DNA of 64,000 bases from the NCBI RefSeq assembly GCF_018413465.1, contig NZ_JAHCDK010000002.1:310001-374000 (forward strand), given 5' to 3'. The translations under genes and the position numbers were made by a program. Of the stretch, positions 21,003 to 34,778 are shown in pieces. This DNA is from Flavobacterium sp. CYK-55 (lineage in GTDB: Bacteria; Bacteroidota; Bacteroidia; Flavobacteriales; Flavobacteriaceae). Within the stretch, counting starts at the first letter, position 1. Each line of letters begins with the position of its first letter. The notes beneath the pieces were generated by a model that did not search any database, was not told the DNA's origin, and was given only the letters and a program-made list of their open reading frames with translations.

Positions 21003-21560
21003 TTACTCAGCGTTCTCTTCGTTGGTTTCTTCAGCAGCAGCTTCTGGAGCTTCAGGAGCTTGCTCTGTAGTTTCAACAATTGGCTCTTCAGCTTTAGGCT
21101 CTTCAACTTTTGGAGCTTCTGCTTTGGTTTCAGCTGCTTTAGCTTTACCTCCACGACGGCTTTTAGTTTTCTTAACCTCTTTTTTGCCTCCGTTGTACAA
21201 TTCGTTGAAGTCAACTAATTCGATCATCGCCATATCAGCGTTATCTCCTAGACGATTCCCCAACTTGATGATACGAGTGTAACCACCCGGACGATCTCCT
21301 ACTTTAGCTGCTACATCGCGGAACAAATCTGTTACCGCATATTTGCTTTTCAAGTAAGAGAACACGATACGACGATTGTGCGTAGTATCTTCTTTTGATT
21401 TTGTAATCAAAGGCTCAACATATTGTTTTAAGGCCTTAGCTTTAGCAACAGTCGTATTGATGCGCTTGTGCTCGATCAATGAACAAGCCATATTAGCCAA
21501 CATAGCTTTTCTGTGTCCAGACTGTCTGCTTAAGTGATTTATTTTCTTTCCGTGTCTCAT
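21003..21560 (-). CDS. rplQ: 50S ribosomal protein L17 with acidic/Ala-rich tail
   Basis: 185 residues. The core L17 domain (about 1-120) starts [20 protein letters not shown] and includes [16 protein letters not shown] long C-terminal extension (about 125-185) is rich in Lys then Ala/Glu/Pro ([19 protein letters not shown]). Tails of this kind are common on Bacteroidota L17 and are probably disordered. Last gene of the alpha operon, 32 bp after rpoA and followed by a strong terminator. Confidence 0.97.
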
Positions 21561-21592: not shown

Positions 21593-22585
21593 TTAATCTT
21601 TGTCTAATTTGTATTTTGATAAGTCCATTCCGAAAGTTAAATTCTTCACAGCAACTAATTCATCCAGTTCTGTCAAAGATTTTTTACCGAAGTTGCGGAA
21701 CTTCATCAAGTCATTTTTGTTGAACGATACCAAGTCACCTAAAGTCTCTACTTCAGCTGCTTTCAAACAGTTCAAGGCACGCACTGACAAGTCCATATCA
21801 ACCAATTTGGTTTTGAGCAATTGTCTCATGTGCAATGATTCTTCATCATATGATTCTGTTTGTGCGATTTCATCAGCCTCAAGGGTAATGCGCTCATCAG
21901 AGAACAACATGAAGTGGTGAATCAATACTTTGGCAGCTTCTGTCAAGGCGTCTTTCGGATTGATCGAACCGTCGGTCTTGATTTCGAAAATCAGTTTTTC
22001 GTAATCCGTTTTTTGCTCCACACGGAAGTTTTCGATCGCGTACTTCACATTGATTACCGGAGTATAGATTGAATCGGTAAAGATAGTACCAATAGCAGCA
22101 TTTTGCTTTTTGTTCTCTTCTGCAGATACATAACCGCGCCCTTTTTCAATCGTCAATTCGATGTTGAGCTTGATTTTGCTATCCATGTTGCAGATCACCA
22201 ATTCAGGATTCAATACTTGGAAACCAGAAATGAATTTTTGGAAATCGCCCGCTGTTAGTTGGTCTTTTCCTGTAACCGAAATAGTCACAGATTCGTTATC
22301 GACATCTTCGATTTGACGTTTGAAACGAACTTGTTTCAAATTCAAGATGATTTCGGTAACATCTTCAACAACTCCAGAAATTGTAGAGAACTCATGGTCA
22401 ACGCCTTCAATACGAACAGAAGTAATTGCATAGCCTTCTAAAGCAGAAAGCATAACTCTTCTGAGTGCGTTGCCCACAGTCAATCCGTAACCAGGTTCTA
22501 AAGGTCTGAATTCAAATTTACCTTCAAAATCGGTAGAATCGATCATGATCACTTTATCGGGCTTCTGAAAATTAAATAATGCCAT
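21593..22585 (-). CDS. rpoA: RNA polymerase alpha subunit
   Basis: 330 residues. The N-terminal dimerisation domain contains [20 protein letters not shown] and [17 protein letters not shown]. The C-terminal domain (about 255-330) contains [20 protein letters not shown] and [13 protein letters not shown], the DNA- and activator-binding helices. It sits between rpsD and rplQ as in the classical alpha operon, 16 bp behind rpsD. Confidence 0.98.
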
Positions 22586-22601: not shown

Positions 22602-23207
22602 TTATTTGTTGTACAATTCGACGATGAGTTGTTCCTTGATATTTTCAGGAATCTGCAATCTAGCAGGAACAGAAACGAATGTTCCTTCTTTGGTGTCATT
22701 GTTCCAAGTAATCCACTCATATACATGTGCAGAATTTGACAATGAACGCTCAATTGATTCCAATGATTTTGATTTTTCACGAACGGCAACTTTATCGCCA
22801 GGTTTCAATTGGTATGAAGGGATGTTGACCACTTCACCATTTACCGTAATGTGACGGTGAGAAACGATTTGACGGGCAGCTCTTCTTGAAGAAGCAATAC
22901 CCATTCTGAATACTACGTTGTCTAAACGGCTTTCGCAAAGTTGAATCAAAACTTCACCAGTTACTCCACGAGCAGCTGATGCTTTTTCGAACAATCCACG
23001 GAATTGTTTTTCAAGGATTCCGTAGGTATATTTTGCTTTTTGCTTCTCCATCAATTGGACAGCGTACTCAGATTTTTTACCTCTCTTTTTAGCCAAACCG
23101 TGTTGTCCTGGAGGGTAATTTCTTTTTTCGAAGGCTTTGTCATCTCCGAAAATAGCTTCGCCAAACTTACGGGCGATTTTTGTTTTTGGACCAGTATATC
23201 TTGCCAT
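22602..23207 (-). CDS. rpsD: 30S ribosomal protein S4
   Basis: 201 residues. [16 protein letters not shown] at the N-terminus has no zinc-binding cysteines. An S4 RNA-binding domain follows ([30 protein letters not shown]). It is a primary 16S binder and, in several bacteria, the translational regulator of its own operon. It is preceded by an 89-nt gap with a strongly structured leader (23221-23272), unlike most of its neighbours in the cluster, which fits autoregulation by S4. Confidence 0.97.
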
Positions 23208-23220
23208 TTTAAATTGTTTA

Positions 23221-23272
23221 AGGCAGCGATTATGAATTCAGGTCTTATCCTTCGATAATCGAGAACCTGCCT
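23221..23272 (-). ncRNA. structured leader of rpsD, candidate S4 autoregulatory element
   Basis: On the mRNA, AGGCAG pairs with CTGCCT and CGATTAT with ATAATCG, a 13-bp stem with a 5-nt 5' bulge (GTTCT) and a 21-nt loop. The 5' CAGGT, which spans stem and bulge, can alternatively pair with ACCTG in the loop, so a pseudoknot or switch is possible. The stem ends 13 nt before the rpsD AUG. Regulation by S4 is inferred from position. Confidence 0.55.
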
Positions 23273-23296
23273 AGGTTATACTATAAATTTTGAGTA

Positions 23297-23680
23297 TTAA
23301 ACTCTACGTCTTTTAGGAGGACGACATCCGTTGTGCGGCATAGGTGTAACGTCAATGATTTCAGTTACTTCAATACCACCGTTGTGAATTGAACGAATCG
23401 CAGACTCACGTCCGTTACCCGGTCCTTTCACATACACTTTTACTTTCTTAAGTCCAGCCTCAAGAGCTACTTTGCTGCAATCTTCAGCAGCCATTTGCGC
23501 AGCATAAGGAGTGTTCTTTTTAGAACCTCTGAATCCCATTTTACCGGCAGAAGACCAAGAAATCACTTCACCTTTTTTGTTGGTGAGTGAAATAATGATG
23601 TTGTTGAAAGTGGCACTAATATGAGCTTCACCCGTTGACTCAACGATAACTTTACGCTTTTTTGTAGTTGCTTTAGCCAT
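23297..23680 (-). CDS. rpsK: 30S ribosomal protein S11
   Basis: 127 residues. [19 protein letters not shown] and the basic C-terminus [18 protein letters not shown] are diagnostic. It binds 16S rRNA in the platform. Located 11 bp after rpsM in the alpha operon and followed by the 89-nt structured spacer before rpsD. Confidence 0.98.
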
Positions 23681-24066: not shown

Positions 24067-24068
24067 AA

Positions 24069-24185
24069 TTATCCTTGTCTTTGTTTGAATCTAGGATTCT
24101 TTTTGTTGATTACGTATAATCTTCCTTTTCTACGAACGATGATGCACTCGGCACTACGTTTCTTTACTGATGCTCTTACTTTCAT
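24069..24185 (-). CDS. rpmJ: 50S ribosomal protein L36, zinc-free type
   Basis: 38 residues, [20 protein letters not shown]... ending RFKQRQG. The 3' end lies 2 bp before rpsM and the start lies 13 bp after infA, the usual infA-rpmJ-rpsM order. Only one cysteine remains of the CxxC...C/H zinc ribbon, so this is the C-minus form that does not bind zinc. Confidence 0.95.
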
Positions 24186-24198
24186 CTTTTTTAATATT

Positions 24199-28289: not shown

Positions 28290-28303
28290 GTTTATTGATT
28301 TGC

Positions 28304-28346
28304 GGTAGTGGTTTTCAATAGAAACTATTTCTTCGAACCTGCTACC
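28304..28346 (-). ncRNA. three-tier hairpin before rpsH, candidate S8 target
   Basis: In the rpsN-rpsH gap three nested helices are seen. The outer is GGTAG/CTACC (28304-28308 with 28342-28346), the middle GGTT/AACC (28310-28313 with 28336-28339), the inner AATAG/CTATT (28317-28321 with 28325-28329). Internal loops separate them. It ends 14 nt before the rpsH start. A role as S8-binding regulatory RNA is inferred from its place and shape. Confidence 0.45.
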
Positions 28347-28396
28347 AATTATACTCTGTTATTTACTTTACCTTTATCAAAAGGCAATGCCAACTG

Positions 28397-34682: not shown

Positions 34683-34729
34683 ATAAAATAATTAATAATT
34701 AATAAATTCTTTTTGATTTAGACATAAGT

Positions 34730-34759
34730 AAAGTACCGAGACCGAAATCCCGGTACTTT
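34730..34759 (-). promoter_or_regulatory. hairpin in the rpsJ-rplC spacer, candidate attenuator or r-protein target
   Basis: AAAGTACCG (34730-34738) and CGGTACTTT (34751-34759) are perfect 9-bp arms with a 12-nt loop. On the mRNA no U-run follows, so it is not a standard terminator; it may be a processing site or a regulatory hairpin for L3 or L4. Confidence 0.45.
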
Positions 34760-34778
34760 TACCTAGATGTTTTTATGA

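Follow-up and report, generated by a model that had tools for sequence, protein, structure and literature searches.

Does the message in front of rpsD in Flavobacterium sp. CYK-55 fold into a leader through which ribosomal protein S4 controls its own synthesis, and is that leader a pseudoknot? A preliminary description of the window (the whole 64,000-nt stretch of DNA analysed here) had suggested as much. The S4 protein encoded in the window is at most 94% identical to its nearest relatives in a homologue search, which are S4 proteins of Flavobacterium, and the genes of the surrounding ribosomal protein cluster carry names (rpsK, rpoA, rplQ and so on) that we presumed from recognising their sequences. 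According to the ORF ends, the rpsK stop and the rpsD start are separated by 89 nt on the minus strand. This is indeed one of the few long gaps in the cluster, as had been remarked: only three exceed 80 nt (rpsK-rpsD, 89; rpsN-rpsH, 107; rpsJ-rplC, 96), a count that excludes 24067-24198, where a short rpmJ was seen by eye.

A hairpin upstream of rpsD belongs to a named leader family

The gap had been described as holding a 13-bp stem (6 + 7 pairs) with a 5-nt bulge, ending 13 nt before the rpsD AUG, and it reads exactly so on the minus strand. Above the outer stem and the bulge GUUCU stands the upper stem of that description, CGAUUAU/AUAAUCG, of which GAUUAU/AUAAUC forms the inner stem of our structure; the tip contains a helix AGG/CCU with an asymmetric AAUU bulge. 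From the foot of the hairpin (23221), 13 nt (UAAACAAUUUAAA) lead to the AUG at 23207. The folding energy of the 52 nt (-14.9 kcal/mol, z -1.97) is a weak argument for the hairpin, because 8 of 200 shuffles fold as well or better.

Table 1. Positions of the features discussed in the text, numbered within the window
Feature	Positions	Strand	Basis
Whole leader hairpin: outer stem, 5-nt bulge, inner stem, tip	23221..23272	-	sequence and covariation, 45 sequences
Outer stem AGGCAG/CUGCCU	5′ strand 23267..23272, 3′ strand 23226-23221	-	5 of 6 pairs changed on both sides in relatives
Core: RF03141, 'S4-Flavobacteria ribosomal protein leader', positions 1-33 of 33	23260-23228	-	cmscan
5′ box AGUAUAAC, outside the Rfam model, conserved in the window's branch	23275..23282	-	AGUAU in 145 of 276 loci
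AUACU, rpsD codons 4-5, complementary to AGUAU, speculative partner	23193..23197	-	codon counts
rpsD, ribosomal protein S4, 201 aa; presumed ligand and regulated gene	22602..23207	-	ORF
rpoA, 3′ of rpsD	21593..22585	-	ORF
rplQ (L17), 3′ of rpoA	21003..21560	-	ORF
rpsK (S11), 5′ neighbour of rpsD	23297..23680	-	ORF
Candidate S8 leader hairpin directly before rpsH, rpsN-rpsH gap	28290-28355	-	predicted fold and covariation
Flavo-1 RNA (RF01705), 67.3 bits	13276-13367	+	cmscan
Flavo-1 RNA (RF01705), 63.3 bits	20792-20891	+	cmscan
Terminator-like hairpin GUAAAGUACCGGGA...UCUCGGUACUUUAC, rpsJ-rplC gap	34683-34778	-	

The whole window was scanned with cmscan for 4227 Rfam families and gave three matches, one of them RF03141. 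A scan for ribosomal protein leader families had been suggested as a check, and it identifies the hairpin: the core aligns with the full length of the RF03141 model and scores 52.5 bits (gathering cut-off 35.2; E 6.1e-8), and no other of the 4227 families reaches E 1 on the leader stretch. It is the single RF03141 match in the whole genome. The core ends 20 nt 5′ of the rpsD AUG and is followed by rpsD, rpoA and rplQ.

The family was predicted in 2020 by Eckert and Weinberg as a Flavobacteria r-leader located before rpsD, rpoA and rplQ (PMC7247131). In the accessible part of that paper, the motif is graded as a likely candidate with S4 assigned as ligand by analogy ('Prior'), it is said to bear no meaningful likeness to the S4 site in 16S rRNA or to other S4 leaders, and the word 'pseudoknot' is absent from the main text. 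The window agrees with the family in sequence, structure and score, in its position 5′ of rpsD-rpoA-rplQ, in its Flavobacteria lineage and in its covarying hairpin, and nothing excludes its membership. The hairpin is hence an already known element, the Flavobacteria S4 r-leader RF03141, of which S4 binding is a prediction. The 33-position model covers neither the outer stem nor the 5′ AGUAU box, both of which may be drawn in a figure or in the supplementary alignments of PMC7247131. What is gained here beyond the model is a covariation-backed outer stem, a conserved 5′ box and divergent cores in genomes that the model leaves unmatched.

The hairpin covaries among Flavobacteriaceae

We aligned the window with 44 of 80 fetched rpsD loci, chosen by eye against near-copies (alignment A1, 45 rows). 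For the 17-pair structure, 96.2% of the 765 cells are paired, compared with 89.5% in shuffles, and 61 cells are changed on both sides, compared with 16.2. Double-sided changes were found in 8 of the 17 pairs, a count equalled by 3 of 500 shuffles, and they affect six of the seven outer-stem pairs, the inner stem and tip being largely invariant. When partners were slid by 1 to 3 columns the paired cells fell to 32-48%, and RNAalifold, run unaided, returned the same structure with one extra pair.

The 13-pair stem of the preliminary description keeps 92.8% of its cells (84.3% in shuffles), with 57 double-sided changes (14.2 in shuffles). The lowest pair of the upper stem, a C-G (columns 30/68), is broken in 19 of the 45 rows; the consensus instead extends the outer stem (columns 23/68) and includes the AGG/CCU tip helix. 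In the wide leader set, which comprises the 217 of 276 loci that could be parsed (the other 59 being without the strict hairpin pattern), the longest outer helix averages 6.6 pairs when formed with the 3′ strand of the same leader and 4.7 pairs with the 3′ strands of other leaders. An alignment of all classes (A2) gave no pair counts, because the outer stems differ in length between classes and fail to line up. Across the gaps of Flavobacteriaceae the hairpin thus covaries, which the preliminary description had named as a check, with a score of 0.236 (0.113 in shuffles) that none of 500 shuffles reached. It is, with hardly any room for doubt, a structured RNA element.

Distribution of the leader

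At E <= 0.001, RF03141 has a match in 234 of 299 genomes sampled from the window's family, 225 of them scoring above the cut-off; the 14 control genomes have none. Each of the 130 loci that were fetched by an RF03141 match (L001, L082-L110 and L111-L210) has its core within 75 nt of rpsD, a position before rpsD that agrees with Table 1 in the accessible part of PMC7247131.

S4 was searched in 30 genomes, 20 of the 65 without an RF03141 match and 10 with a weak one, and rpsD was found in 27. All 10 weak-match genomes have the core, as expected. Among the 17 no-match genomes with rpsD, a divergent core, AGGA ... GACCUUAAU, precedes this gene in 12, and the RF03141 model hence understates the range of the leader within the family; four have a short rpsD gap with no leader. 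In one no-match genome (L215) the core is, by eye, apparently split by an inserted hairpin. Outside the family but in the same order, the leader was found in 1 of 37 loci (L244). Because it is kept in most genomes of the family and in one of these 37 loci, the leader is mainly a Flavobacteriaceae trait.

A side observation concerns L211, L213, L214, L216, L217, L221, L226 and L228, where the S4 leaders are divergent, with an unlike upper stem on which RF03141 is silent. The divergent cores of these RF03141-negative genomes read AGAGGA or AAAGGA ... GACCUUAAUUU.

Leader classes, the AGUAU box and the first codons of rpsD

The 276 loci comprise 164 with a GACC loop (class A), 71 with a GCCU loop (class B) and 41 with neither. 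Among class A loci, 146 were assigned an AGUAU box, 7 carry AAUAUCAA and 11 have neither; the box of L212 proved to be misassigned, and in the remaining 145 loci it lies 27-34 nt before the AGGA core. No AGUAU box was found in the gaps of 70 class B loci, the 71st (L209) being left out. Boxes were counted after the rpsK stop, the rpsK end AGA GTA TAA mimicking the box in some loci.

The third base of rpsD codons 2, 3, 4 and 6 never changes in the box class, and 143 of its 145-146 loci have ACT as codon 5. Elsewhere in rpsD, conserved Tyr, Thr and Gly positions use their commonest codon at a frequency of 0.36-0.95. Codon 6 is GGU in 164 of 164 class A loci, and codon 29 (AGA) is also fully fixed in this class. 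The 71 class B loci use TAT (44), TAC (27), ACA (61 of 71) and GGA (58 of 71), and their codons 2-3 are fixed too, with the exception of one locus. On a FastTree tree of 221 rows, which includes 25 of the 80 fetched rpsD loci drawn at random, the contrast between class A and class B provides 2 supported independent pairs (5 on all branches).

Pairing of the loop GACC with GGUC in codons 6-7 has a predicted probability of 0.02 and 2 supported contrasts. Neither this pairing nor that of AGUAU with AUACU is claimed here, because predicted pairing is weak and independent contrasts are few.

The tree set has 93 box-class loci, and in 40 of them the sequence TAnnTTTG, which we take to be the promoter motif of Bacteroidota, stands upstream in the gap; the same holds for 2 of the 17 class A loci outside the box class and for none of 70 class B loci. 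These are all raw counts with no control for chance. Where TAnnTTTG is present, the AGUAU box and the hairpin would make up the 5′ untranslated region of a separate rpsD transcript. The AGUAUAAC box is also kept where a promoter-like box stands further upstream in the gap.

Other elements in the window

The rpsN-rpsH gap contains a second hairpin of the form AGGUUC-variable stem-GAAAACC within an outer stem, and 11 of its 18 predicted pairs show double-sided changes among 14 sequences of the genus. The search of this stretch against Rfam gave only sub-threshold matches, the best being RF00516 (23.2 bits for a cut-off of 50, E 0.0024 for the stretch), and a literature search found no publication on a Flavobacteria rpsH leader. 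In at least 18 of 60 genomes of the family, that of the window included, the exact pattern is found on the same strand as rpsD or its leader and roughly 5 kb upstream; the pattern and its reversed control both match elsewhere too. We regard this hairpin as a candidate S8 leader, which may be more novel than the S4 leader.

The hairpin in the rpsJ-rplC gap was also seen by eye in L295 and L296. The corresponding gaps of most other relatives differ, often containing TTTG-type boxes, and have in common an AU-rich stretch before rplC (by eye).

Mode of control and alternative readings

The best explanation, to which we give a probability of about 0.85, is that the hairpin is the Flavobacteria S4 r-leader, and that S4 represses the initiation of rpsD through it with no need of a pseudoknot. 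Free S4 exceeding 16S rRNA would bind the hairpin, probably at the invariant bulged tip AGGA ... CCU(U/G)AAUU, whose invariant loop letters suggest a contact with the protein. The bound hairpin, with its base 13 nt from the AUG, would exclude the 30S subunit from the start site, and synthesis of S4 would fall, as would that of rpoA and rplQ through coupling or message decay. Going by how S4 acts in E. coli and B. subtilis, it is most likely that excess S4 binds and represses initiation. S4 is the probable ligand of the hairpin, and control is likely to be translational rather than transcriptional. By eye, no TAnnTTTG promoter-like box is present in the rpsK-rpsD gap of the window and no U-run follows the hairpin, which is most simply read as pointing to an effect on initiation. 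A literature search on the RF03141 family and the F. johnsoniae rpsD leader found no S4 binding or reporter test in the accessible parts of the sources; the rpsD′-gfp fusion that appears in the accessible part of PMC9976891 was used there only in tests of bS21.

With S4 assigned as ligand by analogy, and with the hairpin being internal to a ribosomal protein operon in the window, the element might instead serve the processing or stability of the operon message, or be a site for S11 or L17. We consider this unlikely, since the hairpin stands directly before rpsD in every one of the 130 RF03141-fetched loci, and S4 regulates this operon in E. coli and rpsD in B. subtilis (PMC10931766, accessible part). 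Far less probable still is the conformational switch proposed in the preliminary description, in which CAGGU from the stem and bulge would pair with ACCUG from the loop and be trapped by S4. All five pairs are possible in the window, and in the 45-row alignment the loop ACCU is invariant and the next G nearly so. Five contiguous pairs with the loop piece can form in 40 of 217 leaders (11 of 217 once the 5′ region is shuffled) and, in the genus set, in 19 of 81. However, no pair shows a double-sided change, and the 65.2% of paired cells is the same as in shuffles; its excess over slid partners (8.9-49.6%) is weak evidence, because a structure read off one row tends to show such an excess anyway. 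The last two pairs, on the bulge side, cannot form in 27 of 45 and 37 of 44 rows, and 35 of the 81 genus leaders allow at most three contiguous pairs in any register. Exact CAGGU is present in 4 of 217 parsed leaders and falls in the fast-changing outer stem and bulge, overlapping a stem which itself covaries, and the loop of the wider family is mostly ACCUU or GCCUU. Chance matches and the slid-partner excess arise because many outer strands carry AGGU (AAGGUAG), which the stem uses; ACCU is conserved because it is part of the tip and probably contacted, and the CAGGU side tracks the outer stem. The pseudoknot was thus rejected on the pair counts of this alignment. The pairing can be drawn in the window, as had been stated, but it is neither conserved nor covarying in relatives, and of the earlier interpretation it is the structured S4 leader that stands. 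The element is a named Rfam family, and its reading as a pseudoknot is best dropped.

A larger S4 switch, with the 33-nt hairpin as its middle, can also be imagined for the Flavobacterium branch, although we think it improbable. The AGUAU box would pair with AUACU across hairpin and start codon, enclosing the hairpin and the AUG in one closed loop, and binding of S4 to the hairpin would stabilise the closure. Such a helix would fit the retention of the box in 145 loci, where codon 5 is nearly always ACT and codons 2, 3, 4 and 6 are fixed unlike other Tyr, Thr and Gly codons, as well as class B, in which the box is absent (0 of 70) and the codons are mostly ACA and GGA. On the other hand, no compensatory change was found among the loci, and the seven leaders with AAUAUCAA keep ACT and therefore lose one pair. 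Of two box leaders with an Ile codon, the one with AUU retains a G-U and the one with AUC breaks the end pair. The predicted pairing probability is low (mean 0.20, median 0.12), and on the tree the link between box and codons comes down to 2 supported independent contrasts, too small a number for a test. A preference for early codons may suffice, given that class B codons 2-3 and class A codon 29 are fixed and that the first codons of rpoA are biased. If the larger switch were real, S4 would close off the start site directly, as it does in E. coli though with an unrelated structure, and class B, with its GCCU loop and ACA GGA codons, would have a lock of another kind.

Comparison with other S4 leaders

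According to the accessible part of PMC7247131, the S4 r-leader of the related Bacteroidia is likewise a hairpin before rpsD, rpoA and rplQ, but has no meaningful similarity to that of Flavobacteria. The alpha-operon leader of E. coli is likewise a target of S4 in an operon containing rpsD. Its site, however, is a pseudoknot that covers the ribosome binding site of rpsM, whereas that of the window is a hairpin before rpsD (PMC10931766, accessible part). The pseudoknot pairing proposed for the window had no conservation support in the 45-row alignment, and no match to the E. coli leader was found in the window among the 4227 Rfam models. In B. subtilis, the leader also precedes rpsD but is not a pseudoknot (PMC10931766, accessible part), so that the statement that S4 recognises pseudoknot leaders holds for the E. 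coli site and not for this one. The Firmicutes motif mimics rRNA with a GUAA element, and the Flavobacteria motif shows no such mimicry in the accessible part of PMC7247131; apart from RF03141, none of the 4227 families gave a match that would fit the B. subtilis rpsD leader. This S4 leader overturns no view, but S4 control arose separately in several bacterial lineages, and a testable target in the laboratory species F. johnsoniae therefore has comparative value.
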